The notes beneath the pieces were generated by a model. The model was not told the DNA's origin. It was given only the letters and a program-made list of their open reading frames with translations, and made no database searches. Positions 1-33,493 of a stretch of 64,000 nucleotides of DNA are shown here, piece by piece; the stretch's first letter is position 1, and each line of letters begins with the position of its first letter. A program made the translations under genes and the position numbers. Origin of the DNA: Rhodospirillales bacterium (GTDB lineage: Bacteria; Pseudomonadota; Alphaproteobacteria; Rhodospirillales; Shumkoniaceae); NCBI GenBank assembly GCA_018432935.1, contig JAHDSF010000005.1:145259-209258 (forward strand), read 5' to 3'.

Positions 1-2323
1 CCGCCTTCCAGGCATCGATCAATTCGGCCCTTCGATTCTCGATCTCCTTCTGTTCTGCCATGGCCTGCAACGCAGCCGTCTCGGCCGCGCGATGTGTCTC
101 GGCCATCTCTTTACGGTCCGGAGACTTCAGAGCCGTCATCGCCCTGATGAGCTCGCGCCGGGTCCCCTCCGAGGCCTGCTTCTCGTACGCGTTCCAAGCG
201 AGATGCAGATCTCGCAGGCGGCCTTTCGATGGCAAAGAACGCGCCGCAGCCATCGCCTCCATTTGTGGAGGCGTTGCGACCTCACGGTCGAAGGCCGTCA
301 GAGCGGCGAACGCGTCGTCGACGGCGTCGCGGTTTCGCGGCGTGTCGCTCTTCTTCAGCAGCTCGACCCGACCGACCAGTTGGCTCAGACGCGCCCTTGA
401 GGCGGCGACCTCGGCGACCAGGTCCTTCGCCTCCTTGTATGCCGCAGCTTCCGCCGCACCCATTCTTCCCTGCGCCACCCCGTCTACTTTTTCGAGTACG
501 GTCGAAAGCGCATCCAGCCGTTCGAGCGTCTGCTCCGTCCTGTAGCGTTCGAGCGCCGATACCAGGGCACGGTTCCGGTCATCCGCCTCCGCCAGGACGG
601 CGCGCGCCGTCGAGCCAGCTTTCAGGGCTTCCTCCATGCCAGGGCCGACTACGCCGCTCAGATCGAACTGGTTCAGCGTTTCGAACGCCCGTGCGAGGCC
701 GTCGACCGTCAACGCCGAGCGGTCCTGCCGCGACTTCCGATAGGATTCCTCGAGAACCCGGAGCCTTTCGTCGCGTTGGGCCATGTCCCTCCGGCATTGA
801 GCCGAACGCTCGAACGCGGCCTCGTGCTCCCCGTCCCATCGGCTGCGATCCGTCTCGGTAATCGCCTGGGCCTTGTTCACCAAACCCATGCAGCGCGCCA
901 CGGATGATCCCGAGAGCAACTCCGCGTCGGCGATGTTCAATGCCCGCAGCCGGTCGTCGCTGGCCCGCAGTTCCGCGGGATCGAGCTTCGGGCTGGAAAA
1001 CTCCGCGATCAGCAGCGCAGCCGCGATCGCAAGAACCCCGACGCCCGCCCCGGCGGCCAGCGTCCTCCGCAACGGAACGCGTCGCTTTTCGCCCACTCCG
1101 CTCGCCTGCGCTGCGACACTCGAGTCCCCAGTCTCGTCCACCGAGGCCGCACCCGGTTCTTCGGCTTGCCAGAGATCGCTCAGATCATTGACATGGTCGA
1201 CGCTGCGCCATTCGATCCCGAACTGGTTCTTCAGACGGTCCAGACGATCCAGGATCCCCTTCGAGCCCTCGGCAGAGAGCTGCGCCCGAGGAAAAACGAA
1301 GAGGCTGCGTCGCCGTCCATCCCTCTCGATCAGCGCAATCTTGTCTTGAAAGTCTCCGATGGCCCCGACGGCGCCGCGGCCGCCGGACACGATCACGCCC
1401 GTCGCATAGATCGGCCGTGACGAGTTCTCCGACTGGATGCCGTACCGCGCCATTTTGTCTGCTACGGCGATCGCCAAGCCGTAGCTCTCTCCGCGCAATC
1501 CTCGTGCGGGAGCCAGATAGACCTCGGCCCGATCACCAAGCCTGCTGCTTGTCTCTTCCGACCGCCCCTCACGCAAAGCCGCCGCGATCGCCTCCATCGG
1601 CGGAACGACCACGTGGTCCCGCAGTCCTTCAATGGCGCGAACCCTGACGTAGCCGAACTGCGATCCCCCCGATCCGACGACGGGGAAGTACACGACCCCA
1701 GGCCCCGGAGACAGGAGTTCGATCGGTGCCGGTGCTGACGAGGAAGCCGACAAGCCAGGCTCGGCTGCGGCGGCACCCGCCGTCATCTCGGGCGGCGGCT
1801 CCGGCTCGTCAGGCTCCGGCGTCTCAAGATTCTCCTTCTTCGCCGCCATGCGATCGCGGCAGGCCTCCCTTTGTCGCAGAACCTTGCTTGCCGACTCCTC
1901 GAGGCCGAATGCCTTCAGTAAACGATAGGAGTTGTCCAGGAACCGGTAGGTCTCCTCGTTGCTGAGGAGTTCCCCGCGATTCTCCTTGGTGCTGTGCGCC
2001 AGGGCCTTGTTTCGGGCGTCCAGAACCTCCTGCACCCAGCCCATGACCCTGTCCTTGCCGTTCCGGTGCACGGCGTCAAAGACGTCCCGATGGCTCCGGA
2101 TGACATGGCAGATCTGCTGCTCGTCCCAATCAGGCCGGCCGTTCACCATCCGGATCTGCGACGCCTTGGTCTCGGCCCGCTTCCGATTGACAATGTTCAG
2201 CCAGTCCTGCTTCAGCTTGCGCTCAAGCTCCGCCTGCACGACCGGAGAAAGGGCCTCCTGGAGATTCCATAGCGTCTGACGCAAGACGCCGGCATTGAAC
2301 GCCTCAAGCTCCAGCTCGTCCAT
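1..2323 (-). CDS. HEPN (Swt1-like) / Lon-like protease / transmembrane fusion protein (3' end beyond window)
   Basis: 774 codons are readable from ATG 2323 (preceded by GGGGGAGGAA) to the window edge, with no stop. Residues 1-150 form a helical domain containing RNKALAH at 104-110, the R-x4-H motif of HEPN RNases, with a layout like Swt1-type HEPN. Residues 200-385 look like the proteolytic domain of Lon (peptidase S16): GESYG at 278-282 matches the GPSAG nucleophile motif (Ser280), and a Gly-rich stretch leads to DKI with Lys328, giving a Ser-Lys spacing close to that of Lon. FVFP and a final VDHV segment also fit. No AAA+ ATPase domain is present. A transmembrane helix follows at about 421-441, then over 330 residues rich in coiled coil, probably periplasmic. 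It is the last visible gene of a five-gene operon. Inference: a membrane-tethered toxin or effector whose activity is controlled by proteolysis. Confidence 0.8.
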   Translation of the reverse strand, partial: MDELELEAFNAGVLRQTLWNLQEALSPVVQAELERKLKQDWLNIVNRKRAETKASQIRMVNGRPDWDEQQICHVIRSHRDVFDAVHRNGKDRVMGWVQEVLDARNKALAHSTKENRGELLSNEETYRFLDNSYRLLKAFGLEESASKVLRQREACRDRMAAKKENLETPEPDEPEPPPEMTAGAAAAEPGLSASSSAPAPIELLSPGPGVVYFPVVGSGGSQFGYVRVRAIEGLRDHVVVPPMEAIAAALREGRSEETSSRLGDRAEVYLAPARGLRGESYGLAIAVADKMARYGIQSENSSRPIYATGVIVSGGRGAVGAIGDFQDKIALIERDGRRRSLFVFPRAQLSAEGSKGILDRLDRLKNQFGIEWRSVDHVNDLSDLWQAEEPGAASVDETGDSSVAAQASGVGEKRRVPLRRTLAAGAGVGVLAIAAALLIAEFSSPKLDPAELRASDDRLRALNIADAELLSGSSVARCMGLVNKAQAITETDRSRWDGEHEAAFERSAQCRRDMAQRDERLRVLEESYRKSRQDRSALTVDGLARAFETLNQFDLSGVVGPGMEEALKAGSTARAVLAEADDRNRALVSALERYRTEQTLERLDALSTVLEKVDGVAQGRMGAAEAAAYKEAKDLVAEVAASRARLSQLVGRVELLKKSDTPRNRDAVDDAFAALTAFDREVATPPQMEAMAAARSLPSKGRLRDLHLAWNAYEKQASEGTRRELIRAMTALKSPDRKEMAETHRAAETAALQAMAEQKEIENRRAELIDAWKA

Positions 2324-2352
2324 TTCCTCCCCCTTGTCTTCTCCCTCTTGAT

Positions 2353-2366
2353 TACCGGGAGGGGAA
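2353..2366 (-). repeat. 14-bp element TTCCCCTCCCGGTA, copy 1
   Basis: On the minus strand this 14-mer lies 30-43 nt upstream of the start codon of the HEPN-Lon gene, inside the end of the 180-aa gene. An identical copy lies upstream of the first gene of the same operon (5566-5579). It may be a shared operator or promoter element, or chance in GC-rich DNA. Confidence 0.4.
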
Positions 2367-2368
2367 TC

Positions 2369-2911
2369 TCACGGCTCCAGGACCAGACCGTGCTCGCGGA
2401 CGCGATCCAGCGGCGAAACGCCCTTGTGGATCCACTCGCCGCTCAGCTGCCCCTCGGCGTCGGGAGTTCCCGTTATCCAAATCAGTCCGCCGCCATCGCG
2501 CAGGGCCACGGGCATCAATACTGGAAGATGCTCCCGATACGAGGGCTCCAGCTTCAGCGAGATCAGCCAGTCCACGTCCGGCAGGTCCGCCTTGATGACC
2601 GTCACCGAAAAGCTGTCTCCTGCCAAGTAGTGCACGACGTCGTCCGAACCCGCCGCCAGCGCGAACAAGGCCCTTCCCACGCCATGGTCGCTGAGCCGGG
2701 ACGAGACTTCCGACGTGAGCGCCGCCTTGGTCCGTACATACCGATCGCGCGTCGCCGGAGAAGTCCAAAGCACACGGCTCTCCTCCCGGGTCAGTGCCGG
2801 ACCGGTCGTCAGCGCGGCCCGAAATCTCCCTTCCGAGATGAGAGGCTTCTCGTCCAGAGGCTGAAGATCGAGAACCCGCGCCAACAGGTCGAACCGAGGC
2901 CCGACGTTCAT
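2369..2911 (-). CDS. Hypothetical protein, 180 aa, HEPN-Lon operon
   Basis: I do not recognise this family. It is a soluble protein of mixed alpha/beta character, with no signal peptide or transmembrane helix. The C-terminal half has a hydrophobic stretch and a short Gly-rich segment (DGGGLIWITG, about residues 138-147), suggesting a beta-rich fold. Its start overlaps the stop of the upstream 298-aa gene (ATGA, 4 bp), so the two are translationally coupled. The HEPN-Lon gene begins 45 bp downstream. Co-occurrence suggests it is a cytoplasmic partner, sensor or inhibitor of the HEPN-Lon protein. That is inference from position only. Confidence 0.7.
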   Translation of the reverse strand: MNVGPRFDLLARVLDLQPLDEKPLISEGRFRAALTTGPALTREESRVLWTSPATRDRYVRTKAALTSEVSSRLSDHGVGRALFALAAGSDDVVHYLAGDSFSVTVIKADLPDVDWLISLKLEPSYREHLPVLMPVALRDGGGLIWITGTPDAEGQLSGEWIHKGVSPLDRVREHGLVLEP

Positions 2912-3804
2912 GGCCCTTCCTCCGTATCCACGGCTCCGTCGTATGCGCGAACTTCGTCGGCAAACGCCAGCGCGCCTTTCATGCAGTCGTACAACGCCGG
3001 TGCTGCCTTCGTTATCGTGCCGTCGCCCTTCTTCCCGACCACCTGGCTCCCGAGCAGCGCGAGTACGGCATTGGCCAGCTCAGGGTCAGTTCTTCTCAAT
3101 GCCTCGACGCAACCTCGCAGGATCTCGAAGACGTCCACCTGGTTCCGGGTATCGTGATAGAGCGCCCGGAGATCCTCGACGACTAGTGCCTCGCAGTCGC
3201 TGCAGTAGGCCCTGAAGTACTCCTCGACGGTCGCCGCCGTCCTCGGCAGGTTGCGGTCGTCCGGGTGGAACCGGCGAACGTGATCCGCGACGCCCTGCCA
3301 GTGCGCTCTCGAGCAGCGGACCTGAGGCGGTCGATCGTCCGTGTCCTCGATGATGCGATCACTGATGGCTTTGACGCGCCGCCACGTCTTCAGCTTGTCG
3401 ACGCTCGACGGCGAAGCCGTTCTCAGCCCGTCGGTCAGCCATTCATGGACGCATTCACCAAGGACGCCCATTGGCGACGGCGATCGCTCGTCTTTCGAGA
3501 TCAACAGCCGAAGATCGCGATGCACCAGGACGGCAAGCCGATCTCCGTCATGCATCAACGGCATGCCTAGCGCGAAGATACGCGCCTCGTCGTCACGTTC
3601 CCGGACCGCCTGCCATTGCCGCTGCATCGCCTGCAGCAGGGATTGATGCCAAGCGCCTACGACCTCGTCGACCTTCTCATGCCGGTCACGCAGTGGGCCA
3701 AGAAGATCCTCAGCCCGCCCGACGGCCCACCGGGTCAGGCGGCCGCGAAGCCGCGGCCACCCTTCCCGATACCAGTAGTCCTCCTCGACAGCGAATCTGT
3801 TCAC
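2908..3804 (-). CDS. Hypothetical helical protein, 298 aa, HEPN-Lon operon
   Basis: The family is unknown to me. The protein is Trp- and charge-rich at its N-terminus (about residues 1-60) and predominantly alpha-helical, with no signal peptide or membrane span. Several Cys and His residues lie between about 185 and 245 (CSRAHW, YCSDCEAL), which could form a metal site. The start is GTG at 3804, after a G-rich stretch, 24 bp behind the upstream gene. The end overlaps the 180-aa gene by 4 bp. It belongs to a tightly packed operon of two membrane or periplasmic genes and three intracellular ones, and is probably an intracellular component of the same complex. No catalytic motif was seen. Confidence 0.7.
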   Translation of the reverse strand: MNRFAVEEDYWYREGWPRLRGRLTRWAVGRAEDLLGPLRDRHEKVDEVVGAWHQSLLQAMQRQWQAVRERDDEARIFALGMPLMHDGDRLAVLVHRDLRLLISKDERSPSPMGVLGECVHEWLTDGLRTASPSSVDKLKTWRRVKAISDRIIEDTDDRPPQVRCSRAHWQGVADHVRRFHPDDRNLPRTAATVEEYFRAYCSDCEALVVEDLRALYHDTRNQVDVFEILRGCVEALRRTDPELANAVLALLGSQVVGKKGDGTITKAAPALYDCMKGALAFADEVRAYDGAVDTEEGP

Positions 3805-3828
3805 TGCCCGCCCCCCGCGTTACTCTCG

Positions 3829-4671
3829 TCACTTCACATGCAGAAACACGCCCGGGTCGGGTGTCTGCGGCGCGCGCATAGACGGTGTCTTGATCTTCAA
3901 ATTCGCGACAAGCTTTTGGTATACCACCGAATCGGAAGTCCACTGACTGTCCTCATACCTTGTCGAGCACTTGAGAGAGATCGCAATCGGGTACAGACCA
4001 GGCTGTAGATCTACGACGGGCTGGTCCACATAAAGGTCGTTCGCGACTTTCTTGGCGCCTGCTATATGGCGTCCATTCAGTTGGACGTCATAGTTGCAGG
4101 TATGTGGACCGTTATTGGAAAATTTCTTCTCCGCCTCAAAAAGTATGACATGGCTTCCCGCCTCCAGCGCCTTCAGATAGCCAGACCATCTGCTTTCAAG
4201 AACATAGTTGGCCGGCAACTGTGAGTTCCGCTTCAGCGACGGGTCCTCCATGAATTTTGCGAAGACCATAATCGGGACGGACTCGTCCACCATAAAGCCC
4301 GCAGGATACTGCGTCGTCGCCGAGAGATCGTGCTTAGGGATGACATAAAGCTCGTAGATCAGACCCCTCGCCAAGTCTTCCGCCGTCAGGCCTCCAGTCG
4401 CGGGCTTCTGCGTCGCCGCGTTGGAGGTGGGAGCAGCCGATTTCGCAACCGGAACGGAACCACTTTGGGACTTCGCCGGACCCGTCTTCGCCGGGGCACC
4501 ACCCTGACGGCTCAGCATGTCGATGATCGCATCCAGCTTAGTGTCGATCTGGTCAATCCGCTTTTCGTGCTCTTGCAGCTTCGACTGCACCTGATCATCA
4601 GCCGCCCAGACAGGAAAAGCCGCAAAGCACCCGACGATGGCAGAACTACAGACAAGCAACCGGAAACTCAT
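3829..4671 (-). CDS. Secreted periplasmic protein with PA14-like beta-sandwich
   Basis: The 280-aa protein has an N-terminal signal peptide (about residues 1-23, cut after VWA). A short coiled coil follows (24-55: KLQEHEKRIDQIDTKLDAI) and then an Ala/Pro/Ser/Lys linker (56-95). The C-terminal domain (about 100-265) reads like a PA14-type sandwich: a SRWSGYLKAL opening, an FEAEKKFSNNG strand, DVQLNGRHIAG, then VVDLQPGLYPIAISL. PA14 domains generally bind carbohydrate or cell-surface ligands. In this operon it would sit in the periplasm, facing the C-terminal coiled coil of the HEPN-Lon protein and the 254-aa membrane protein. Inference: an envelope-side sensor. It is the most AT-rich gene of its operon. 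Confidence 0.65.
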   Translation of the reverse strand: MSFRLLVCSSAIVGCFAAFPVWAADDQVQSKLQEHEKRIDQIDTKLDAIIDMLSRQGGAPAKTGPAKSQSGSVPVAKSAAPTSNAATQKPATGGLTAEDLARGLIYELYVIPKHDLSATTQYPAGFMVDESVPIMVFAKFMEDPSLKRNSQLPANYVLESRWSGYLKALEAGSHVILFEAEKKFSNNGPHTCNYDVQLNGRHIAGAKKVANDLYVDQPVVDLQPGLYPIAISLKCSTRYEDSQWTSDSVVYQKLVANLKIKTPSMRAPQTPDPGVFLHVK

Positions 4672-4691
4672 GACTCATCCCCCCTCTTTCC

Positions 4692-4730
4692 GCAGATCCG
4701 CCGTTCACACGTAGGTGTCCGGCGGTCTGC
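4692..4730 (-). promoter_or_regulatory. Intercistronic hairpin between coiled-coil and PA14-like genes
   Basis: An 11-bp stem (GCAGACCGCCG pairing with its complement, with one bulged base) contains an inner CACAC/GTGT pairing. There is no U-run after it on the minus strand, so it is more likely an mRNA-processing or stability hairpin than a terminator. Confidence 0.5.
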
Positions 4731-4749
4731 AACCATGAGTGAAAGGTAC

Positions 4750-5514
4750 CTAGTTGGCCGAGCGAAGGAAAGCCTCAAGGTCAGGGTTCTCCTGCTCTTC
4801 CCGAGCGCCCCCGTACGACCCCTCGAGGATCTGCCGAGTCGTGCGGATGAGCGTCTGAGAGTCCGCCAGGCCGCCCTCGCTCATGCGGATGACGTCGTCG
4901 ATCGCCGCCACGTTGATCTTGAAGCCGGCCAGGGCCTGGTTGGCCTTAAGCAGCTCCATCTTCGCCGGGACCATCTGCTTCGCCAGAGACACCTCCGCGC
5001 CCTGGGCCAGGAGGTCGTCGAGTCGCTCCTTGAGCTTGCCCTGAAGCTCTCGCGCTTCCCTGACGCTCCCTTCAAGGCCGGACTTTTCCCGGAGCAGAAG
5101 CTCGAGCTGAGCCTTCAAGGACGTCTTGTTGGGGTACTCGCGCCCTGCGAACGCGATCGGGCCGTCGTCCGCCTTCGACCGGTACAGGTCCCGTCCCTGG
5201 TTCAGCAGCGCAGCGTTCTTCTCGACCAGCATCTGCTGATCCTCGATCATCGCCATCACCCGACCCAGCTCGAGCCGTAACGAGCGCACGGAGACGTCCA
5301 GCGACCGCTCCAGGTCGCGCAGGGTTTCGTAGCGGCTGGCGAGGCATGACAACGGATCCGCCGCGCACGCGCTTTCGCTCCACCCGGTAACGTGCTCGCG
5401 CACGGCCGCATCGAATCTCGACGTGACGCTCGGCGCCACCTCGTCAAGAATCAGATAGCCCACACCCGCCGCGACCGCCAACCCCGCCGCGAAAGTCACA
5501 GTCTTCAGAATCAT
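4750..5514 (-). CDS. Membrane-anchored coiled-coil protein, 254 aa
   Basis: A single N-terminal transmembrane segment (about residues 4-24) is followed by a short Cys-containing region (ACAADPLSCLA, 49-59) and then almost continuous heptad-type helix from about 60 to 225. The two cysteines could form a disulphide if this part lies in the periplasm. No enzymatic motif is seen. It is the first gene of the HEPN-Lon operon: ATG 5514 is preceded by GGGAGGGGGTC and it is divergent from the gene at 5728. The long coiled coil suggests an oligomeric membrane scaffold, possibly pairing with the coiled coil of the HEPN-Lon protein or the PA14-like protein. Function unknown. Confidence 0.7.
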   Translation of the reverse strand: MILKTVTFAAGLAVAAGVGYLILDEVAPSVTSRFDAAVREHVTGWSESACAADPLSCLASRYETLRDLERSLDVSVRSLRLELGRVMAMIEDQQMLVEKNAALLNQGRDLYRSKADDGPIAFAGREYPNKTSLKAQLELLLREKSGLEGSVREARELQGKLKERLDDLLAQGAEVSLAKQMVPAKMELLKANQALAGFKINVAAIDDVIRMSEGGLADSQTLIRTTRQILEGSYGGAREEQENPDLEAFLRSAN

Positions 5515-6619: not shown

Positions 6620-6829
6620 TCATGGGTACCCCGATTCCGCAATACGCGCGACCTGCGCCTTTACGTTTCGGAGTGCACGGACGTCGCTCGGCGTACGGGA
6701 GACGACGACGAACCCTGATCTGAAGGGATGCCAAAGCTTGTCGTGCTTTCCACCCCTTTGGATCCGCCATCCGGTCCGGATTAGATTCGCGATCAACTTG
6801 TTCAAGTCCTTGTTCGATGAGAATCGCAC
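6620..6829 (-). CDS. HicA-like mRNA interferase toxin, orphan
   Basis: The 69-aa protein has the HicA pattern: a short N-terminal helix, then GWRIQRGGKHDKLWHP with the catalytic-type His in GKHDK, a strand (FVVVSRTPSD), and a final helix (ALRNVKAQVARI). HicA proteins are small dsRNA-binding-fold RNases, normally neutralised by an adjacent HicB. The start is GTG 6829, five bases after GGAGG. No HicB-like ORF is found on either side: downstream lies the end of the frameshifted gene, upstream the ankyrin gene. It is therefore either an orphan toxin, a relic, or controlled by an unrelated antitoxin. Confidence 0.65.
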   Translation of the reverse strand: MRFSSNKDLNKLIANLIRTGWRIQRGGKHDKLWHPFRSGFVVVSRTPSDVRALRNVKAQVARIAESGYP

Positions 6830-6904: not shown

Positions 6905-9172
6905 TCACGAATTCCCACAGCGCATCCGGCAGGCTGCCAGGACATCAAGCACGGCCTCGCGTTTGTGGGCGAAAGCGATCGTGTACGCGTCCTGATGCGG
7001 CGTCAGAGGCTTGCCGAGGGCGTCCAGGATCGGCTTTGACGGGTTCCCTCCGAACTGCAGCATGATGTCCATCATCGGCCCATCGCCGACCTGGGCCGCA
7101 AACAGGGTGGGCGTCATCCGTGGTCGGCCCGGCCCTGGCGAGACATACTCGTTGGGCTTCGCACCACTATGCAGGAGCATCCTCACGATCTCGCGGAACT
7201 TCGAACGCGCGGTGTACGTCAGAGGAGGCTGACTGTGCTTCATGATTTGGTCGAAGGCGATCCCCCATAGTGGATCACCCCGGCGCTTATGGGGCATGCT
7301 GGCTCGAGTTTCCGCAAGCTCTGATCCGAAAACCGCACCGCCTGCTCGTGCATCCCATATGCTTGGCTCGCCCTCTCCGGCCAGCCAACGGGCATGACCC
7401 TCGCCGGCCATCTCCGGGTCGCGCCACGCCCATGTCAGAAGCGTGTAGTAAAGGGGCGGCCAGCCAAGGCGGCAAGGCTTGTTGGGATCGGCCCTTTGGT
7501 CGAGAAGTCGTTGAACGACCCAGGGCTCCCCGAGTTTGATCGCCAGCGCGATCGGTCTTTCCTTCTCTTCTCCCGCACCCCGGTCCCAACCATCGTTCGG
7601 ATCGCTGGAACCCTGCAGCTTGGGCAATGCGTTGAGAGCGATATGCAGCTTTTCGAGATGCCTGGTTTGGATTGCGTCGCGAAGCGCGCTGTGCAACGCG
7701 TTCTCGCCCGTCTCGGGAATATGCGTGGAGAAGTCTCCACCGCGGTCCAAGAGCGTGGCGACGTCGGTTGTCTCGCCGAGCATGAATGCTAGCATGAACG
7801 GAGTGCGACGCAGCCCTGTAGACTCATCCACAACGCTGACACGGTTTGGGGCGCGTCGGCCTTCTGGTCCCCGGAGGCGGTCTTCCATTTCCGGTATGAG
7901 AACAAGTGCCGGCCGAGTGGATACACGCTGCTGCGGCCGGCGGCCAAACCGTTGTTCCGCAGCGACGGCGAGACGTCGCTCCTCCATCTCATCAATCGCG
8001 GTTTTCTGGAAACCATTCAACTTTAAGAAGAAGGCCCTGTCCCAGGCGGCCTTTGCCTTCGGCCTCATGCCACAAAGGACGGCGTGAAGCAGTGCGTCTT
8101 TGATGAGCGGCTCATGATTCGGCCCGGCCCGCCACCACGCCCGCTTGAGTGCCCTATGAAACAGCGCGGCCGCTGTCGAGTCCTCACCGAGCCTCCCATG
8201 GTGAACGGCCGTCAGCCAATCGTGCAGATAGCCGTTGTTGGTCCGGGCCGGTTCCGGCAGCCGCTCGGTGGCTTCACGTAGGCGCATCAAAGCTTCCTCC
8301 GCCGCGGAAGCGTGGACGGGATTGAATGCCTCATTGATCAGGGTCCAATAACTGCGAAGCTGAACCTCCGGGATAGCCTTTTGCGTCTCCGCGTCGAGGC
8401 TTGCGGCCACTCCAATCGAGCCTTGATCACCCATTTGCAGCGCGTCGCGCCATTCCGGCGACGCGCTTTGCAGCAGCCGCGCGAGCATGAACCAGCCAAG
8501 GATGTTCTCGAGGTCAGTCTTGCTCGGGGCAAAGCTCGCGAGTCGGCTTCTGATCCCTTCGGGCTTGAGCTCAGATATCCGATTGCCCGAGAGCCAACGC
8601 TGCCAACTCCTATGGCTGACCGCGTCGCCAGAAATCACGATCGCGATCTCCTCACCCGAAAGCGGCCGTCCCTCATCTCGAAGCACAATGGTCGTCGTCA
8701 GCCACTCGACCCAACTGCTGAACGGCTCTTTTAGTAATCGCGGAACCGGAGGACCACCGACCATGGCCCCGATTTCAGCGATCTGATTGTGGAAAAACGG
8801 CGCTATGCAAGCGGTGTAATGGTTTCTGCCTATCTTAGGCTCAACAGCGGTTGTATCCACGGCACACACGAGAGCCTTAACGGCATCGCACCCCGCTCGG
8901 ATCAAGGCCGAAGCCCACGACTCCCATTCATCGCCCGCCAGCGCCTTCACCTCTGCACATATTTCCCTGACGGCCAATCTCTCGCTTTGGACGTAATCGG
9001 CCGCCTCGCCAGAGCGCAGTCGCTGGAGTGCCTTGCCAGCAGCGCCAGAGAGCCGAAGACCGAAACCCGAGGTAAGGAACTCAAGAGCCTCGCCAATCGT
9101 CGGAATCGGAAATTCCACGGTGGATAGTCGGGGGCGGTCCTTTGCCGCCCCCTTCGCCGTCTTGCGGCTCAC
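6905..9172 (-). CDS. Ankyrin-repeat protein, 755 aa
   Basis: The N-terminal two thirds (to about residue 480) are helical, with Trp-rich TPR-like segments (SYWTLINEAF, NNGYLHDWLTAVHHGRLG). The C-terminal third has ankyrin repeats: TPFMLAFMLGETTDVATLLDRGGD, then PIALAIKLGEPWVVQRLLDQRADPN, then IVRMLLHSGAKPNE, and TLFAAQVGDGPMMDIMLQFGGNP. I place the start at GTG 9172 because a well-formed 54-aa gene occupies 9169-9333 in another frame and its TGA overlaps this GTG (GTGA). The frame itself stays open upstream to 9361, which would give 818 aa with an implausibly basic N-terminus. Ankyrin proteins bind other proteins; the target is unknown. Confidence 0.7.
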   Translation of the reverse strand: MSRKTAKGAAKDRPRLSTVEFPIPTIGEALEFLTSGFGLRLSGAAGKALQRLRSGEAADYVQSERLAVREICAEVKALAGDEWESWASALIRAGCDAVKALVCAVDTTAVEPKIGRNHYTACIAPFFHNQIAEIGAMVGGPPVPRLLKEPFSSWVEWLTTTIVLRDEGRPLSGEEIAIVISGDAVSHRSWQRWLSGNRISELKPEGIRSRLASFAPSKTDLENILGWFMLARLLQSASPEWRDALQMGDQGSIGVAASLDAETQKAIPEVQLRSYWTLINEAFNPVHASAAEEALMRLREATERLPEPARTNNGYLHDWLTAVHHGRLGEDSTAAALFHRALKRAWWRAGPNHEPLIKDALLHAVLCGMRPKAKAAWDRAFFLKLNGFQKTAIDEMEERRLAVAAEQRFGRRPQQRVSTRPALVLIPEMEDRLRGPEGRRAPNRVSVVDESTGLRRTPFMLAFMLGETTDVATLLDRGGDFSTHIPETGENALHSALRDAIQTRHLEKLHIALNALPKLQGSSDPNDGWDRGAGEEKERPIALAIKLGEPWVVQRLLDQRADPNKPCRLGWPPLYYTLLTWAWRDPEMAGEGHARWLAGEGEPSIWDARAGGAVFGSELAETRASMPHKRRGDPLWGIAFDQIMKHSQPPLTYTARSKFREIVRMLLHSGAKPNEYVSPGPGRPRMTPTLFAAQVGDGPMMDIMLQFGGNPSKPILDALGKPLTPHQDAYTIAFAHKREAVLDVLAACRMRCGNS

Positions 9173-9333
9173 TTCTGACCTGCCTTGCCGGCGGCCCTTG
9201 TCGCGCGCGCCGCGAAACTTCCCTTCTGAACCATTCCGCCGTTTGTCTTTGCCGTCGCCGACTGGATGCGAGCAGCGGCTGTGGCAGTCATTGGCGACTT
9301 GCCCGCGAAACCCCTGGAAGCTGACTTGGCCAT
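9169..9333 (-). CDS. Small SMP-like protein, 54 aa
   Basis: ATG 9333 is preceded by AACAGGAGAG, a clear ribosome binding site. The product begins MAKSASRGFAGKSPMTATAA and contains ARIQSATAKTNGG and KGSFAARATRAAGKAG. From memory this matches a widespread alphaproteobacterial small-protein pattern (MTP-AARIQSA...GSFAARAQSAA), resembling seed-maturation (SMP)-type sequences, often near conjugation genes. The stop overlaps the GTG of the ankyrin gene, so the two are coupled. It is Ala/Lys/Ser-rich, probably unstructured, and too short for routine ORF calling. Function unknown. Confidence 0.6.
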   Translation of the reverse strand: MAKSASRGFAGKSPMTATAAARIQSATAKTNGGMVQKGSFAARATRAAGKAGQK

Positions 9334-9466
9334 CTCGAGATCTCTCCTGTTCTGGGTTCACAACGGAGCAAAGCTACGTCCGATGGCAGAGAGCCGCGTG
9401 ACACGTTCTGGACAGGATTCCGATTTTTCCCATCGGCCCAGTGTTCGCGCTCTCGACGCTGGAGAT

Positions 9467-10544: not shown

Positions 10545-11633
10545 TCACCTCATGCGTAGCCTGGCTCTGGGTTCGGGTTCTCGCAGAACCTCGTCAAGAC
10601 AACTGCAAAATGCCTCGACGGCCGGCACCAGACCGGCTGAAATCAGCCCGCCGGACTTCAATCGGCGCGAGACGAAGACGATAGACCGAAGCTCCCGGGG
10701 CAGCGCCCGTCGCACGGCTCGGGCCAGACGGTGTGGCCAGTTTGCCTCCCAGGCAGTGGCGGCGGTCGTGAACATCGTCTCGAAGGTGGCGGCGCGTGCA
10801 TGGACCGGGACAGGATGATCCTTCGAAATGCGCCTCACCTCCGCGATCGTCTCCTCGACGCGGAGTTCATCCGAGACCGCTTTGAGTTGCCGTGCCTCGC
10901 AATGTAGGCTCGCCAACTGCGTGTTCTGGCGCTTGCGTCGTCTATTGCGGTCGCCCTTCGCCGTTCGTATGCCACGCCGCTCCATCATTGTAGCCGCGGG
11001 GCCAAGCTTCGCGAGCGGCAACCGCGGAGTTTCTCCCGCCTGTTCGCGCGTGCGCATGGACCGACTGTCGACCCGCACGGCAAGGCCGGCCTCCTGCAGG
11101 GCACGGTTGACCATCGCTTCCCATAATTCACGCCATGCGGTGACATGGGCGCTGCTCGAGGGCTTGGTGTCGAGTTCCCTCGTCTTTTCGCCAAGGGCAC
11201 GACCCTCAATAACCCGGCGGGTGGTGACCAACATGTGCGCATGCACGTTTCGGTCGTCGCCCAGCCGGTGGGCTTCGTGAAGATGGACTGACGCCGCCAT
11301 TTGATGACGATGCCCAAGGGCTTCGGCGAACGCTTCGGCGAGCGACCAGTGTTGGCGGGCGTCCAGCTCGTGGGGCAGCGCCAGGGTTATCTCTCGCGCC
11401 ACGACTGAATTCCCCCTCCGCTCCGCGGCTTCGGCGGCGTTCCAGAGCGAGCCGACGCCGCCGCTCCACCCGAAGACGCCACTCCGGATGTGCCCGGCCT
11501 TTCGGGTGTAATCATGCACCAGACCCGTCCGCTCATCGCAAATGCGCTGACAGGCCCGATACGCGGCCGCCGCGACCACGGATCGGCCCGCGGCCCGTCT
11601 GATCGCCGTTACGGCGAAGTGGAAGGTTGCCAT
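10545..11633 (-). CDS. MobA/MobL-type (MobQ) relaxase
   Basis: The 362-aa protein matches the N-terminal relaxase domain of MobQ/TraA proteins. The opening is ATFHFAVTAIRRAAGRS-(V)-AAAAYRA, with Tyr25 the likely nicking residue. A HEAHRLGDDRNVHAHM segment at about 120-135 supplies the metal-binding histidines (the NxHxH part of motif III), and the first His of the usual HxDxxN is shifted to HE. Relaxases nick oriT and remain covalently attached to the transferred strand. This one lacks the helicase domain of full TraA, so it belongs to a mobilization rather than a self-transfer system. The start is ATG 11633, and an oriT-like element lies just upstream at 11653-11681. Confidence 0.85.
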   Translation of the reverse strand: MATFHFAVTAIRRAAGRSVVAAAAYRACQRICDERTGLVHDYTRKAGHIRSGVFGWSGGVGSLWNAAEAAERRGNSVVAREITLALPHELDARQHWSLAEAFAEALGHRHQMAASVHLHEAHRLGDDRNVHAHMLVTTRRVIEGRALGEKTRELDTKPSSSAHVTAWRELWEAMVNRALQEAGLAVRVDSRSMRTREQAGETPRLPLAKLGPAATMMERRGIRTAKGDRNRRRKRQNTQLASLHCEARQLKAVSDELRVEETIAEVRRISKDHPVPVHARAATFETMFTTAATAWEANWPHRLARAVRRALPRELRSIVFVSRRLKSGGLISAGLVPAVEAFCSCLDEVLREPEPRARLRMR

Positions 11634-12391: not shown

Positions 12392-14476
12392 TCAGGGCAT
12401 CAAGTCGGCGAGGTACTCGGAACCGGGCTCCACTCCGGTGACGACGACCTGATCCCTGGCCCGCGTGCAGGCGACGTAGAGGAGGTGGCGCTCGGTGTTG
12501 TAGATCTCGTCGAGTTCCGCCTCTTCCGCCGCCGATTCGATCCGCTCCTGTAGCGGGATCACCTCGTCGTCACAGGCCATGACGGCGACGGCCTTGAACT
12601 CCAGCCCCTTGGCGAGATGCATGGTCCCGATCGCGACGGCGTTTGCCGTCGCCTCGGCCTTGTCATCGAGGACGATCGATTTCTGGCCGGCGTGCTTCAC
12701 CGCCTGCTTCGCCCGGTCCGCCTGATCCAGCGTCCTCACGAAGACGCCGATCTGCTCGGGCGCGATTCCGTCCGCGACCGCGGCCGCGATCCAGTCGCCG
12801 ACGAAGGCGATCTCCTCCTCTTCCGTGTCGAACGTCCGCACGACGGGTTCCGGCCCGTTGAAGCAGGAAACCGTTCCGCGGCGGCTCTCCTCTATGCCGT
12901 CGACGTCACGCAGATGCACCGGAAGCAGGAGATCGGCCTTGCGACGGATCTGGTGTGACGTCCTGTAGTTCACGCGAAGCGAAAAGGATCGGCCGCGGAC
13001 GTCCACGCCCTGGGACAGCCAGGAATAGGGCTGCTGGAAGATCCGCTGCCCCAGGTCGCCGGCAAAGAACAGTGAGTCGCCGGAGTCGGGGACCAACGCC
13101 CTCAGGAACCGGAGCTGCGGGATGCTGACGTCCTGCGCCTCGTCGATCACGGCATGGGTGAACGGCTTGCGGTCGGACGATCGAAGATGCTCCGTCACCT
13201 TCGCCATGGCCTCGGCCCATGTCACCATGTTGCGCTGCCGAAGCGTCGCGCGCGCCTTGTCGAACACCGACCAGAGGGCCTCCCGCTGGCGACCGCCGAT
13301 ACGGGTCTTCCGGCCAAGCCGGGAGACGTCGCGATAAGCCTCCCACGACTTGATCTGCCAGGCGTCCACAACGAAACGCCACTCGTTTAGGAGAAAGCGT
13401 CGGCTGAACCGCGGCTGCGACAGCTCGGCCGCCGCCGTCATGATGATGTTCTCGATCTGGGCGCCGGACGCCATGTTCGGCTTCGTGCCGAAGATGTCTT
13501 CGTACAGGCGGTAGGCGATGCCATCGACGTGCCCGGTGGTGATCCGAGGGGCCGCCTCGTCGTCTTCAGTCAGCAATCGTCCCAGCTTGGTCTTCAGCGC
13601 GTGGGCGAGGTTCTTCGAGAACGTCGCCAGCAGGACTCTCGCCTCGGCGGACTGCCTCGCCAGATACACGGCCCGGTGAAGCGCGACGACCGTCTTCCCC
13701 GTCCCGGCGGATCCGGTGACGCGTGCCGGGCCGTCGAAGTGCTTCTCTGCGATCTCGCGTTGTGCCGGGTGGAGGAAGACGGTCCATTTCTCCCACGGGA
13801 ACTCCAGGGCGAGCTTGAGTTCTTCGACGTCGTGAACCACGCGGAACCGGCGAAGGGCGTCGGGATGGGAGAAGGGATCGACCTTCTCCGGGACCTGGAC
13901 CGGTTTCCTAGGGACCCCGCCGACGGCCAGTTCTAGAAGGGCCTCTGCGGCTTCTTGCGGCAGGTGCGTGGCCAATTCGAGTAGGGCATCAGCGTCCGCA
14001 GCCCGGACCGCATCTAGCCATTCGGGCGGGACGCCGTAGCTCAACAGATCGTCGCCCAAACACCCTGCGAGTACGGCTGGCCCCGACAGGCGTGGTTCCG
14101 GAGGCACGGTCAGTGCGGCCGCGGCGGCTGGGGAAACCTCCTCCAGTCTCTCGACGACTTCGACGATCTGGGCGGCTCCGGTCGAGGGATGGGTCTCGAT
14201 CTTCCTCCTCTCCGCCCAGCGGTAGGCGGCATCGTGATGATCGACGTAGCAGAGAAGCAGGCTCGCCTGGCTCTTGTGGACGATCAGCCGAATGTCGTCG
14301 CTCACGCGAACGGACCAGAAGTTCGGATCCTTCGAGGCTTCGACCCTATGGAAGTGCAGCGCTGGAGACGAGGGATCAAGCTGGAGGTCGAACGCCGTCG
14401 TCTTGACCGCTTTCTGGAGCTTACCCGGAAGCTTGGTGAGGCTGGCCGTGAACGTCTCGGCGATGCGGAATTCCAT
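12392..14476 (-). CDS. RelE/ParE-like domain fused to UvrD-type SF1 helicase
   Basis: The 694-aa protein has two parts. Residues 1-90 read as a RelE/ParE-superfamily fold: MEFRIAETFTASLTKLP, then a long helix, FHRVEASKDPNFWSVRVSDDIRLIV and LLCYVDHHDAAYRWAERR. The remainder is an SF1 helicase: Walker A GSAGTGKTVVALHR, Walker B AVIDEAQDVSIPQL, GTMHLAKGLEFKAV (motif V) and LLYVACTRARDQV (motif VI). The RelE-type half is normally a ribosome-dependent RNase or gyrase toxin. Here it may instead be a DNA- or RNA-end sensor. It is the last gene of the eight-gene restriction operon, 18 bp after the DUF4145-like gene. ATG 14476 is chosen; TTG 14494 is possible. Confidence 0.85.
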   Translation of the reverse strand: MEFRIAETFTASLTKLPGKLQKAVKTTAFDLQLDPSSPALHFHRVEASKDPNFWSVRVSDDIRLIVHKSQASLLLCYVDHHDAAYRWAERRKIETHPSTGAAQIVEVVERLEEVSPAAAAALTVPPEPRLSGPAVLAGCLGDDLLSYGVPPEWLDAVRAADADALLELATHLPQEAAEALLELAVGGVPRKPVQVPEKVDPFSHPDALRRFRVVHDVEELKLALEFPWEKWTVFLHPAQREIAEKHFDGPARVTGSAGTGKTVVALHRAVYLARQSAEARVLLATFSKNLAHALKTKLGRLLTEDDEAAPRITTGHVDGIAYRLYEDIFGTKPNMASGAQIENIIMTAAAELSQPRFSRRFLLNEWRFVVDAWQIKSWEAYRDVSRLGRKTRIGGRQREALWSVFDKARATLRQRNMVTWAEAMAKVTEHLRSSDRKPFTHAVIDEAQDVSIPQLRFLRALVPDSGDSLFFAGDLGQRIFQQPYSWLSQGVDVRGRSFSLRVNYRTSHQIRRKADLLLPVHLRDVDGIEESRRGTVSCFNGPEPVVRTFDTEEEEIAFVGDWIAAAVADGIAPEQIGVFVRTLDQADRAKQAVKHAGQKSIVLDDKAEATANAVAIGTMHLAKGLEFKAVAVMACDDEVIPLQERIESAAEEAELDEIYNTERHLLYVACTRARDQVVVTGVEPGSEYLADLMP

Positions 14477-14494
14477 CTCACGTACCCCGGCCAA

Positions 14495-17028: not shown

Positions 17029-17580
17029 CTATGCATGGAACTTGTCGTATTCGGCCACCGGGTCGATTTGCTCATACTTGTCCGCGCTCGCCCCGTTGGA
17101 TAAGCGCTCAAGCACGTGCCGGGCCAAGGATCTCAACCGCTGTACGTCAACTCGCGCCACGAAATTGATGGGCTCTCTCGGGCGTGGGCGATTCCAGACC
17201 AGGAGGTGGGTAAGATCCTGTCCGTCTGCGCTTTCAGGTTTGATGTTCAAGTGGGCGATCGCGTGACGCATGAATTTCGGAATGTCAGCCAGGGATTTCG
17301 GCCACCCCTCGTCACTATGCTTGGAATCCGGAGCCTCTTCCTTTGGCCTAAGGATCTTTACGACCTCTTCGAGGTTAGCCCTTCCGTAGTCTCTTAGAAT
17401 ATCAGCCATGTATTTTCCTGACTCACCTCTCTCATGAGGCAGGACAAAAACCGCCAATAGAAACCCAATCAGGGCCGTATCTTCATATGAGATCGGTCGA
17501 TCCCCCTCGATATCGGACATATTCCTTACGGTTCGTCTCGCAAACTCCTGAATGAACCTTCCGTTCGGATAGCTCGTCAT
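17029..17580 (-). CDS. HEPN-family protein (pEK499_p136-like)
   Basis: The 183-aa helical protein begins with FARRTVRNM and YEDTALIGFLLAVFVLPHE, a pattern I associate with pEK499_p136-type HEPN proteins. It contains RHAIAH, the R-x4-H active-site motif of HEPN RNases, at about residues 106-111. HEPN domains degrade RNA and act as effectors in abortive infection and toxin systems. ATG 17580 is 3 bp after the methyltransferase stop, so the two are tightly linked. Inference: an RNase effector triggered when the modification system is challenged. Confidence 0.7.
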   Translation of the reverse strand: MTSYPNGRFIQEFARRTVRNMSDIEGDRPISYEDTALIGFLLAVFVLPHERGESGKYMADILRDYGRANLEEVVKILRPKEEAPDSKHSDEGWPKSLADIPKFMRHAIAHLNIKPESADGQDLTHLLVWNRPRPREPINFVARVDVQRLRSLARHVLERLSNGASADKYEQIDPVAEYDKFHA

Positions 17581-17583
17581 CGT

Positions 17584-20427
17584 TCACCTCACCGTGAACA
17601 CCCTCATCACTTCATCCCCGAAGTGGTTGATCACCTTCACCGCGATCCGGCCCGTGCACGGCTTCGGGAACGGGCGGGAGACGTCGCGGTAGAGGCTCGC
17701 CCAGGCCTCCTCGTCGATCTCGGCCTTGAGGCTGGTCTTGAGGGCCTTGTACGGATCGTTGGCCCCGAGGAAGTAGGCGTGGCGGACGAAGAAGCTCTCT
17801 TCGTTGTAGTCCGTGTCGATGAACCAAGCGGCAATGTCGTCGGTGTCACCGGAACGGACCTCGCCCTTCTGGGGATCGAACACGTCGACACCGAGGATCC
17901 GCACCTGGATCTGGTGGTCTTCGAGGTCCTTGATCTCGATATCCGGCTCGCCGAACACCACGAAGAGGTTCCCGGCGCCGGTGTTCTTCAGCTCGTCAGC
18001 CATGTGCAGGTCAGGGTTCATGCGCGCCTGAATGACCGTGAGCGCGCCCTGCCGATGGAACTCCGATGCGTGGGCGTCGTAGTTGAAGGCACACGCGATG
18101 AGGACGTCGAACCCGGCCTCCCGGGCCTCGCGAGCCGCGGCCACCATGTCCGGGCGCGAGACGGTCCCGAACTCCGGCCCGATGAACATGCCGGCCTTGC
18201 GCTCCTTGTCCCCCTCCATGAACCGGCCTTCGGCGGCGATGTATCCGTCGCCCGGCCATGGGGTGAGGCTGGTGAAGACGATCCGGTCCTCCTTCTTCGA
18301 CTGCTGAACGCCGGAGCGCTTCAGGTGATCGAGGACCATGTCCGCGAAGTCAGTCGCCTCCTCCCACTGGTGCGGCCTGACGGTGCGGCGCGGAGCGGGA
18401 CGTCCGGCCTCCTCAGCCTCGGAGGCGAGGAGTTCCTCCCAGAGCGTGTCGTCCACGTCCGAAGGCACCACCCGATGGGGTGACAGGCTTTCGACCGTGA
18501 ACGGTCCGGCCACACGGATCGTGCGCTTGTCCTCATAGGGCTTGTCGTAGAGGTATTCGGTTTCGGCGTTGCGGGCGATCGAGGCGTCGATTTCCTGCTG
18601 GCGGGCGATGCGTGCCTCCCACCACTTCGCGTGCGCCTCCTTCGCTGCCGGCGGCCAGCCGGCCTCGGCCTCGCGCGGGATCTCCCAATCCTCCCAGGAT
18701 CTGCCGCGCGCCGCGTTCAGGGTCGCCCGCAGGGGCTCCAGAGTGCCCTGCCACTTGTCCCAGATGACGTCGATCTCGGCATTGTTGGCGATCGACTTCA
18801 GCGTGACGTGCGGCACGCGCCCATAGACGAAGCCCTGGCGGATGTCGCCGTGGGTCGGACGGTCGGCCGACGATCTGCCGGCGACCGCGCCCTCCTTGAG
18901 GAGGCCGGCCCGGGAATCGGCCAAGAGGTAGTAGGGATAGCGCGCGCCCATCAGCCGCGCCCGCGCGAGAGCCAGAGCAACGCGGCTAGTGTCAATGGTG
19001 ATCCACCGACGCCCCCACTGTTCGGCGACAAAAGCCGTGGTACCCGAGCCGCAGGTCGGGTCCAGAACCAAGTCACCGGGATCAGTAGCCATCAGAACAC
19101 AGCGTTCTATTACTTTCGTATTAGTTTGAACTACGTAAAGCTTTGGGTCTCCAAATCCTGCGGTTGTAGTGTCCGACCACTGGTTGTTGTGCGGAAAAAC
19201 ACTGAAATCATCAAAAAAGCGAACGTACCTAAGCGTGTTCCCAAAGGGAATCAGGCGATCTGCTTGCTGGAGGCGATTCATGCCGATACGGTTCGTCTTC
19301 CAACCACCTTTGTTCGGCATGTATTCTCGTCCACTTACGGAGACTGGGAATATAGTTGTCATTCCGACACGAGTCGTTTGTGACGTTAGGTTATCTCCTG
19401 AGAACAATCTCAACCCGGTCAATTGACCTGAAAGTTCATCAGGAAGCGCAGATCGTCGAAGGCCATTTAGCTCTTGCACACGGAAATATGCCGTTCCGCC
19501 AGCACCATCGATTGTCTTTTTCTGGTATAATTGCTTGTATTTGGCTGCTTCTTTTCGCCGAGTAAACCAAATAATATGATTTGAAACGCTTGCGAGCAGG
19601 TTTGTCCCAACTGAAAAGCTACCTGCACCTGTAGTTGTCTTGAACGTTATTTGTGCCGCGAAATTCTCCTCGCCGAAAACTTCATCCATCAGCCCTCGCA
19701 CGCGATGGACATTCTCGTCGCCGATCTGAACGAAAATGGAGCCGCTGTCGGCCAGCAAGTCGCGGCAGACGGTCAGGCGGTCGCGCAGATATGTGAGGTA
19801 GGAGTGGATGCCATCCTTCCAGGTGTCGCGGAAGGCCTTCACCTGTTCCGGCTCACGGGTGATCTGGTCGACCTTGCCGTCCTTGACGTCGCGCGATCGG
19901 GTCGAAACCTGCCAGTTGGAGTTGAACCGGATTCCGTAGGGAGGGTCGATGTAGATGCACTGCACCTGCCCCCGCAAGCCTTCCTTTTCAGCGAGGCTTG
20001 CCATGACCTGCAGAGAATCGCCCAATATCAGGCGGTTGGACCAGTGCTGGTCGTGGGCGTAGAACTCAAGCCGCGCTTCGGGGTCCGGCAGACCGTTGAA
20101 GTCTCCGAAGAGGTCGGGCAGCGCATCGGGTCCCTGCTCGGTTTTCCGTTCCTTCGTCTGCCGGCGTAGATCCTCGATAATGACCTTCGGATGGACCTTC
20201 TCCTGAATGAAAAGCGGCGGGGCCTGGACGACCAAGTCGGACCAATCCTGCTCGTCCTTCCCGCGCCACACGAGCTGCGGATCCAGGTCGGTATTGCGGG
20301 GATACCGCAGCTTCTTCGGTGCCGCGTCCTCGGCCTGCACTAGCGACTGCAACTCGGCGGTCGGGATGTTCTTGCGCGTTGCCGCTCCGTGGGTGAAGGA
20401 CTCGACGTCCAGCCCGTTCTTGACCAT
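17584..20427 (-). CDS. Type III-like DNA methyltransferase (Mod)
   Basis: The 947-aa protein is a beta-class N6-adenine methyltransferase. DPPY lies at residues 161-164 (CIYIDPPYGIRFN), and the SAM-binding LDPTCGSGTT comes later, at about 454-463. Between them (about residues 245-445) is the target-recognition region, encoded by clearly AT-richer DNA (about 19,090-19,680). The long C-terminal extension (600-947) is shared with Mod proteins linked to helicase-type Res subunits. It adds a methyl group to adenine in a specific site, to mark self DNA. It sits between the DUF262 gene (20 bp upstream) and the HEPN gene (3 bp downstream). Confidence 0.9.
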   Translation of the reverse strand: MVKNGLDVESFTHGAATRKNIPTAELQSLVQAEDAAPKKLRYPRNTDLDPQLVWRGKDEQDWSDLVVQAPPLFIQEKVHPKVIIEDLRRQTKERKTEQGPDALPDLFGDFNGLPDPEARLEFYAHDQHWSNRLILGDSLQVMASLAEKEGLRGQVQCIYIDPPYGIRFNSNWQVSTRSRDVKDGKVDQITREPEQVKAFRDTWKDGIHSYLTYLRDRLTVCRDLLADSGSIFVQIGDENVHRVRGLMDEVFGEENFAAQITFKTTTGAGSFSVGTNLLASVSNHIIWFTRRKEAAKYKQLYQKKTIDGAGGTAYFRVQELNGLRRSALPDELSGQLTGLRLFSGDNLTSQTTRVGMTTIFPVSVSGREYMPNKGGWKTNRIGMNRLQQADRLIPFGNTLRYVRFFDDFSVFPHNNQWSDTTTAGFGDPKLYVVQTNTKVIERCVLMATDPGDLVLDPTCGSGTTAFVAEQWGRRWITIDTSRVALALARARLMGARYPYYLLADSRAGLLKEGAVAGRSSADRPTHGDIRQGFVYGRVPHVTLKSIANNAEIDVIWDKWQGTLEPLRATLNAARGRSWEDWEIPREAEAGWPPAAKEAHAKWWEARIARQQEIDASIARNAETEYLYDKPYEDKRTIRVAGPFTVESLSPHRVVPSDVDDTLWEELLASEAEEAGRPAPRRTVRPHQWEEATDFADMVLDHLKRSGVQQSKKEDRIVFTSLTPWPGDGYIAAEGRFMEGDKERKAGMFIGPEFGTVSRPDMVAAAREAREAGFDVLIACAFNYDAHASEFHRQGALTVIQARMNPDLHMADELKNTGAGNLFVVFGEPDIEIKDLEDHQIQVRILGVDVFDPQKGEVRSGDTDDIAAWFIDTDYNEESFFVRHAYFLGANDPYKALKTSLKAEIDEEAWASLYRDVSRPFPKPCTGRIAVKVINHFGDEVMRVFTVR

Positions 20428-20447
20428 GAATCACTCTCCCTCGATGG

Positions 20448-22355: not shown

Positions 22356-22368
22356 CCTCTCCCCCCCT

Positions 22369-25300: not shown

Positions 25301-25407
25301 ACCGGGGGGTTGTCGGTCGGCTGCCCGTCGGCGTCGAGGTCATGGTGCCACTGCGGGATTTCGTAGGGAGAATTGAGGATAGGCTGCTCGAAAAAGCGGT
25401 CGCTCAT
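22369..25407 (-). CDS. Type III restriction enzyme-like helicase-nuclease (Res)
   Basis: The protein is 1012 aa from ATG 25407 (GTG 25410 is an alternative; GAGGGAACG precedes both). It has an SF2 helicase core with Walker A MATGSGKTTVMAM at about 177-189 and a DEAH box in VVINDEAHHCY at about 312-322. A C-terminal PD-(D/E)xK nuclease follows at about 930-957 (KYLPDYIVQIDDG, then VVMEVKG). Res subunits use ATP to translocate or signal along DNA and cut when two unmodified sites are met, with the partner Mod giving specificity. It is the first gene of the eight-gene operon. Confidence 0.9.
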   Translation of the reverse strand: MSDRFFEQPILNSPYEIPQWHHDLDADGQPTDNPPVHGRRRSELITPVPKPKKQKGKKKAAEQAGFVFADEHGLTTAEQEYNPTPIINEIRTYVDAWRKLSNPSDWNVTPTTARLLQHWRHHPFAGIRPFFCQVEAVETIIWLTEVAPKLGKQGAKFWDHVRGANEQANPALLRLAMKMATGSGKTTVMAMLIAWHVANAVRHPNAKSYSRGFLIVTPGITIRDRLRVLLPNDPDSYYKTRELVPTDMLPDIDRAKIVITNYHALKQRERMEVSKVGRALLKGRGNDVNTLETEGQMLQRVMPDLMGIKRIVVINDEAHHCYREKPGANGGAGLSGEEKDEAKKNNEAARLWINGIEIVKRKLGLQAVYDLSATPFFLRGSGYAEGTLFPWTISDFSLMDAIECGIVKLPRVPVADNLPNAEMPVYRNLWEHIGKKMPKKGRGKSESLDPHKLPSELQTALYALYGHYEKTFDLWDKEGIGVPPVFIVVCNNTATSKLLYDFISGFLREDEDGNTHFHDGRLELFRNYDEHGNRLPRPRTLLIDSEQLESGDALDKDFRAVASDEIDQFKRELAQRSGAAAAEKITDQDLLREVMNTVGKPGRLGESIRCVVSVSMLTEGWDANTVTHILGVRAFGTQLLCEQVVGRALRRQSYELNDDGLFNAEYADILGIPFDFTAKPVVAPPKPPRETVHVFAVREREMLEVRFPRVEGYRVELPDERLQARFTQDSVLHLTPERVGPCTVLLEGIVGEGVTLDIKHLEKVRPSTVCYNLAKHLLFKHFRDPGQEPKLHLFGQLKRITREWIDGGYLKCSGGTFPAQLMYQEIADQAAERIYLACQRTDAGARRVKAILDAYNPVGSSRFVNFNTSKKTRWKTNPDRCHVNWVVCDSDWEAQFALALETHPRVRAYVKNQALGFEVPYRDGATPRKYLPDYIVQIDDGHTDLLNVVMEVKGFRGGDAQLKAETMRALWVPGVNNLGRFGRWAFAEFTAVFEMESQLARLIDSFLVREPA

Positions 25408-25523
25408 CACGTTCCCTCACCGACGACTCCGCGTGTTCTGATTGCGGATCTTTGACATAACCTATCGCGCCGGTACGCGTTCGATCCAGCCCGAATTTCG
25501 CCGCTGGCGTCGTGCTCGGCGGC

Positions 25524-33419: not shown

Positions 33420-33493
33420 TGGCTGGGGCGCCAGGATTCGAACCTGGGATCACGGGACCAGAGCCCGTTGCCTTACCGCTTGGCCACACCCCA
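33420..33493 (-). tRNA. tRNA-Gln(CUG)
   Basis: The minus-strand sequence folds as a full tRNA. The acceptor stem TGGGGTG pairs with CGCCCCA. The D arm is GCC-AAGCGGTAA-GGC. The anticodon arm is ACGGG-CTCTGGT-CCCGT with anticodon CTG, and the T arm is CCAGG-TTCGAAT-CCTGG. The discriminator is G, followed by an encoded CCA, for 74 nt in total. It reads CAG codons. Its 3' half lies at the island junction, so it is the probable integration target. Confidence 0.95.

Follow-up and report, generated by a model that had tools for sequence, protein, structure and literature searches.

What kind of system is encoded by five co-directional genes (G1 to G5) at the edge of a 64,000-nucleotide stretch from a Rhodospirillales bacterium, and what might their largest product do? 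The stretch, called the window here, is G000:C29:145259-209258 in a 5.05-Mb genome. Our analysis makes G5 a likely candidate for a membrane alarm of a kind not described so far, in which a HEPN domain and a likely Lon-like protease domain are joined through one membrane helix and a predicted periplasmic stalk to a predicted periplasmic FGE domain. The core unit consists of G3, G4 and the membrane Lon-like protein, and the HEPN and FGE domains are add-ons found only in this genome.

Domain organization of G5

The complete G5 comprises 1,185 residues in the whole genome, and the window edge truncates its gene. Its parts are as follows:

2..2323, minus strand: in-window part of G5, residues 1-774 of 1,185 (whole gene L002:14025-17582, minus strand)
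1910..2272, minus strand: HEPN_Swt1 domain, residues 18-138 (Pfam PF18731, E 9.6e-9; motif Arg104, Asn105, His110)
1154..1723, minus strand: likely Lon-like domain, residues ~201-390 (Ser280 codon 1484-1486, Lys328 codon 1340-1342)
1004..1066, minus strand: single membrane helix by hydropathy, residues ~420-440, with an Arg/Lys-rich N-flank
2..1003 (window part), minus strand: helical-repeat stalk, predicted periplasmic, continuing to residue ~915 outside the window
outside the window, minus strand: FGE-sulfatase domain, residues 937-1162 (Pfam PF03781, E 1.5e-50)

The RNKALAH (residues 104-110), GESYG (278-282, with Ser280) and DKI (327-329, with Lys328) motifs named in a sequence-only reading of the window are all present in G5, and the HEPN_Swt1 profile scores 36 bits against a Pfam cut-off of 27.5. 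A linker that by eye is rich in Ala, Pro and Glu lies between the HEPN and Lon-like domains (residues ~165-200). The transmembrane helix of that reading corresponds to a single hydrophobic segment, and five Arg/Lys residues fall within the 15 residues before it; thus, the HEPN and Lon-like part is predicted to be cytosolic and the remainder periplasmic. The tail taken for a coiled coil is better described as helical repeats ~62 residues apart, with five similar segments starting at residues 521, 584, 646, 703 and 833. The summed score of these segments is 310, above the shuffle maximum of 270 (0 of 500 shuffles), a generous control since the segments were chosen by eye. The FGE-sulfatase profile scores 172.6 bits against a cut-off of 23.3 and matches over model positions 1-203 of 255, and the closest solved relative of this domain is PvdO (5hha, E 5.4e-45), a periplasmic protein. 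A Pfam scan of the whole G5 at E 0.1 shows no SAVED domain.

The envelope sensing proposed from the window is now better supported, because the C-terminus that could not be seen there is a predicted periplasmic FGE domain. The proposed combination of HEPN, Lon-like domain and membrane helix in one protein also holds, the Lon-like part as likely only; that proposal lacked the C-terminal FGE domain, the gene extending beyond the window.

The middle domain is likely Lon-like

Across 398 genomes of the phylum, a search with G5 residues 200-388 found 28 with matches at E ≤ 0.05. Of the 30 places listed, two are in G5's own genome; six of the other 28 were compared, and L057 was accepted and L063 (context L095) accepted more weakly. 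The best match outside the own genome (E 3.4e-6) is in G900, which belongs to the same class and another order and is probably Blastomonas. The Lon-like parts of G5 and G900 are 22% identical and have Ser280, Lys328 and Gly278/Gly282 in common. A two-row profile built from both was compared with 19 canonical Lon domains (19 of 30 loci) and gave E 0.0044 with a score of 25.4, above a shuffle maximum of 22.1 (0 of 100 shuffles as good). In this alignment GESYG lies on GPSAG and Lys328 on the Lon lysine, and the match extends into the C-terminal part. The Lon-like reading is therefore strengthened by a relative that keeps both catalytic positions, and from sequence comparison we regard the middle domain of G5 as likely Lon-like.

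This assignment, and with it the receptor reading built on it, has to be weighed against several results. The region has no Pfam match even at E 10, and searches of the PDB gave no match to a Lon. G5 alone aligns with the Lon profile with its dyad in register at E 0.09, but 32 of 300 shuffles score equally, which is not significant. The third relative, in G586 (L095; E 0.006), keeps the lysine and has no serine at the dyad position; a three-row profile that includes it gives E 0.012 (0 of 100 shuffles) with only the Lys half aligned. An AlphaFold2 model of the HEPN-Lon part made with no homologues as input has a mean predicted local distance difference test (pLDDT) of 42.7, too poor for a fold search.

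The second-best place, in G791 (L058, G791:C1:1531075-1531455; E 9.3e-5), has three internal stops, and its open frames gave no match; it is possibly a decayed relative. The own genome also holds a further divergent Lon_C match (G000:C7:25744-26346, E 3.4e-6) within a 716-residue frame.

G3, G4 and the membrane Lon-like protein form a conserved core

The five open frames all lie on the minus strand, as the sequence-only reading had reported, and have a high GC content at codon position 3 (0.67-0.85). The genes other than G5 are as follows:

4750..5514, minus strand: G1, 254 residues; membrane anchor at the N-terminus and a helical region (hydropathy)
3829..4671, minus strand: G2, 280 residues; predicted secreted, with a hydrophobic segment at the N-terminus
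2908..3804, minus strand: G3, 298 residues; no membrane segment by hydropathy
2369..2911, minus strand: G4, 180 residues; predicted helical N-half and predicted beta-sandwich C-half (model pLDDT 73)

The 4-bp overlap that had been noted is between G3 and G4 (2908-2911). G2 had been described as PA14-like; searches of Pfam, NCBIfam, PADLOC, PHROGs and PDB sequences show no PA14 family and no known domain in it, with weak matches at most.

In the G900 locus, homologues of G3, G4 and the Lon-like protein are adjacent and in the same order as in the own genome (phmmer E values among the frames of that single locus: G3, 2.4e-16; G4, 7.6e-21; Lon-like, 5.7e-8). Identities are 32% for G4 and 25% for G3, whose best stretch is residues 121-208. 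The G900 Lon-like protein has 368 residues and consists of the Lon-like part, a membrane helix and Sel1-type repeats (Pfam E 0.0014, below the cut-off). This locus has no match to G1, G2, HEPN or the stalk, and FGE was not listed by Pfam among eight proteins scanned, six of them from the G900 locus. The check proposed with the sequence-only reading, whether the five genes stay together in other genomes, thus had a mixed outcome. All five do not form a conserved unit; G3, G4 and the Lon-like part recur in order in one genome, but G1, G2, HEPN and the stalk do not, and FGE is not listed there. Near this trio, at L086 6346-8241, a DNA/RNA non-specific endonuclease (E 4e-23) is joined to a zincin-like part.

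The G586 relative (L095) has 640 residues, with a Lon-like part, a membrane helix and a different C-terminus. All three Lon-like proteins have a hydrophobic helix after the Lon-like part, preceded by three to five Arg/Lys residues, and nothing in the other two loci matches the G5 stalk. A 187-residue gene precedes the G586 Lon-like gene in the position of G4 and matches G4 over 29 columns (E 0.04, 0 of 100 shuffles), a lead only. A 682-residue neighbour in L095 was rejected as a G3 relative, with 24 of 100 shuffles as good. Among 48 genomes of G586's class, the search gave, besides G586 itself, a single weak 64-residue frame.

A G4 profile found three proteins among 4,106 candidates, namely G4 itself, P0009 and P0007; P0007 groups 27 sequences, which occur on 34 contigs, and is near-identical to the G900 homologue of G4. 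No other convincing G4 turned up in samples of 289 class genomes and 176 genomes of G900's order, so the trio of G3, G4 and Lon-like protein is rare. Weak G4 matches in G025, G491 and G1038 were discarded, as within 20 kb around each no frame resembled G3 or the Lon-like part at better than E 0.017. Scans of genome contigs showed no relative of G5 residues 1-410 or of G3, nor did viral contigs and plasmids, and a phage scan with only the HEPN-Lon part of G5 gave none.

The G4 model shows a weak fold match to CalpT (CalpT10), which may be a chance sandwich; the other Foldseek and VIA-align rows were taken as chance sandwiches.

The HEPN domain has relatives elsewhere; the full architecture was found only here

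We aligned 16 of the 18 HEPN places found, leaving out one with stops and one short fragment. The Arg and His are kept in 16 of 16 and the Asn in 15 of 16. The spacing of the motif is Rx5H in G5 (R104, H110) versus Rx4H in the 16 aligned places, and an excerpt of PMC11229360 gives Rx4-6H as the range of the HEPN catalytic motif. Counting the own genome, 12 of the 289 genomes of the class carry HEPN_Swt1 at E ≤ 0.001. A HEPN-Lon query matched in six of 297 genomes of the order; four of the five non-self matches cover the HEPN part (frames of 1,095-1,126 residues) and one covers residues 143-231. Five of ten long HEPN frames were scanned, and all five are HEPN_Swt1 plus DUF499, a combination that a passage of PMC12839542 describes for BREX-related systems. 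No Lon-like, stalk or FGE sequence was found at E ≤ 0.05 in any of 19 HEPN loci, each of 2.2-3.4 kb.

Against 5.8 billion proteins, G5 residues 1-410 retrieved only themselves among 7,992 scored candidates; the G900 protein (368 residues) is below the length limit of these large searches and thus could not appear there. The whole-G5 query gave six proteins at E ≤ 0.001 among 7,994 scored, G5 itself and five others. These five cover 14-19% of G5, presumably the FGE part, and all carry kinase and FGE Pfam domains, a different cytosolic output attached to a domain of the FGE kind. In the sequences searched, neither a HEPN domain with a Lon-like domain nor HEPN, Lon-like and FGE domains in one chain were found a second time. 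Neither this architecture nor the trio was found in the titles and abstract openings listed, with bioRxiv preprints and most subscription journals outside that coverage.

Comparison with known systems

In layout the G5 operon resembles CalpL, CalpT and CalpS of CRISPR systems, which combine a Lon-family protease carrying a C-terminal sensor with two partner proteins; in the G5 operon the counterpart would be the likely Lon-like protease with its putative FGE sensor. The action of CalpL on its partner is reported by others, whereas for the G5 operon it is a conjecture; the sensor is SAVED in CalpL but the C-terminal FGE past the membrane helix in G5, and HEPN is extra in G5. HEPN_Swt1-DUF499 proteins (type-1 BREX-related) are also long and begin with a HEPN domain of this family, but it is joined to a DUF499 ATPase instead of Lon-like, stalk and FGE parts. 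The kinase-FGE proteins P0002-P0006 share a C-terminal FGE with G5 (30-40% identity), and P0002 also has, by eye, a hydrophobic segment after the kinase and ahead of FGE; their output would be a kinase, that of G5 HEPN and a protease. Ire1 has a lumenal sensor. Ire1 and C6orf70 resemble G5, by analogy only, in a HEPN-superfamily RNase tethered to the membrane, but they belong to the eukaryotic endoplasmic reticulum and have no protease. C6orf70 is likened to Ire1-like proteins in a section of PMC3710099.

An IS21-family element interrupts the FGE domain

An IS21-family insertion sequence (IS) element with istA and istB sits within the FGE domain, whose final stretch is located beyond it. The arms of the element (L002:11720-11779 and 14012-14071) are 72% complementary, and TTGTT, noted by eye on both sides, is a probable target-site duplication. 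Because of this position, the encoded G5 lacks the FGE end and terminates in element-derived residues, and this copy is probably without a working sensor. Among 28 plasmid records that match the element, the best eight show 74-76% identity to it. Past the element the operon likely goes on with two more genes, the first for a predicted secreted protein (215 residues) that starts ~15 bases after the last FGE stretch and the second for a predicted lipoprotein (75 residues).

A link of the FGE domain to diversity-generating retroelements was dropped: the FGE tail is single-copy in the own genome (one match, itself), and no reverse transcriptase search was made.

Genomic setting

Type III restriction-modification and Gabija genes lie ~12-24 kb upstream of G1. 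The Gabija pair (window 25831-29666) consists of GajB (PADLOC E 1.8e-249) and a 638-residue OLD-like AAA-TOPRIM protein in the GajA position. In the type III locus (window 17032-25410), a pEK499-type HEPN protein adjoins the methylase, and a GmrSD-type protein stands between the methylase and the Res subunit. A second GajB-like helicase is at window 12395-14494. A MobA/MobL relaxase (window 10548-11633, E 5e-42) and a tRNA-Gln (window 33420-33493) hint that this is a mobile island. It is the neighbourhood alone that suggests a defence role of the G5 operon.

Upstream of the operon and on the same strand is an 818-residue ankyrin-repeat protein (window 6908-9361) with a weak PADLOC match to PDC-M72A (E 0.0013), and a 69-residue minus-strand frame (window 6620-6829) is HicA-like by eye.

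Possible mechanism and alternatives

G5 could be a membrane receptor that responds to a signal from beyond the inner membrane by cutting protein and RNA in the cytosol, a reading we offer as possible with the balance of probability against it. The predicted periplasmic FGE domain would act as the sensor, and the signal would pass through the helical stalk and the membrane helix to the likely Lon-like Ser-Lys protease. The protease may then cut G4, whose gene lies immediately upstream, and thereby release or switch G3; these roles are proposed because, among the neighbours tested, G3 and G4 are the ones conserved with the protease. In the G5 variant the N-terminal HEPN would add an RNase output leading to growth arrest under attack, and G1 and G2 may be envelope helpers particular to this variant. 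Excerpts of PMC10907252 propose FGE/C-type-lectin domains as sensors in some conflict systems. A wider claim, which we hold to be doubtful, is that of a new class of transmembrane immune receptor, in which a periplasmic C-type-lectin-like (FGE) sensor would directly drive a cytosolic Lon-like protease and a HEPN RNase in one chain, with the G3-G4 relay as protease target. Relatives would have exchanged their sensor and RNase modules, and the receptor would be a bacterial counterpart of Ire1 in plan and an envelope-triggered counterpart of Calp.

Further observations weigh against the receptor reading. The protein with HEPN, Lon-like and FGE domains is known from one genome, in which its gene is broken, and G4 is found in few genomes. 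The scanned part of the G900 locus shows no named defence system (Pfam only). A passage of PMC7159879 classes the FGS (FGE) domain as an effector, not a sensor. The G3 profile matches extracytoplasmic function (ECF) sigma factors over 24 columns, with 5 of 100 shuffles as good, and the function of G3 is unassigned. This match also bears on a transcription switch of the Calp type, in which G3 would be sigma-like, G4 an anti-sigma factor cut by the G5 protease and HEPN an accessory, the trigger being the envelope and not cyclic oligoadenylate. The likeness of G3 and G4 to CalpS and CalpT is one of layout, beyond which there are the sigma match and the weak CalpT fold match, and we place the switch on the unlikely side.

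The same genes could instead be an operon for signalling at the cell surface or under envelope stress that plays no part against phages, next to defence genes because of the mobile island. Consistent with this, the gene downstream of the G900 Lon-like protein encodes a DUF4384 protein (E 7.9e-9), the locus lies among CsgG/DUF4384 and, by eye, OmpA-like genes, and G1-G5 gave no match to any PADLOC model at E ≤ 1; the RNase-type HEPN fusion and the nearby Gabija and type III genes argue otherwise, and we judge such an operon to be a plainly unlikely explanation. The idea that proteolysis frees a HEPN toxin goes back to the sequence-only reading: the Lon-like domain would be a regulator or autoprotease of the fused HEPN, and self-cleavage would release the RNase from the membrane. 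In favour of it, the two domains follow each other in G5 across the linker rich in Ala, Pro and Glu. Against it, the G900 protein keeps both partners but has no HEPN, so that releasing HEPN can hardly be what the core does. G4 is a more plausible substrate, and we consider HEPN release quite improbable.

If the receptor reading of G5 is correct, a single bacterial protein would link the detection of signals beyond the inner membrane directly to proteolysis and to RNA cleavage. The conserved trio of G3, G4 and a membrane Lon-like protein is named here, and the supposed relation of its putative protease to the small candidate substrate is directly testable.

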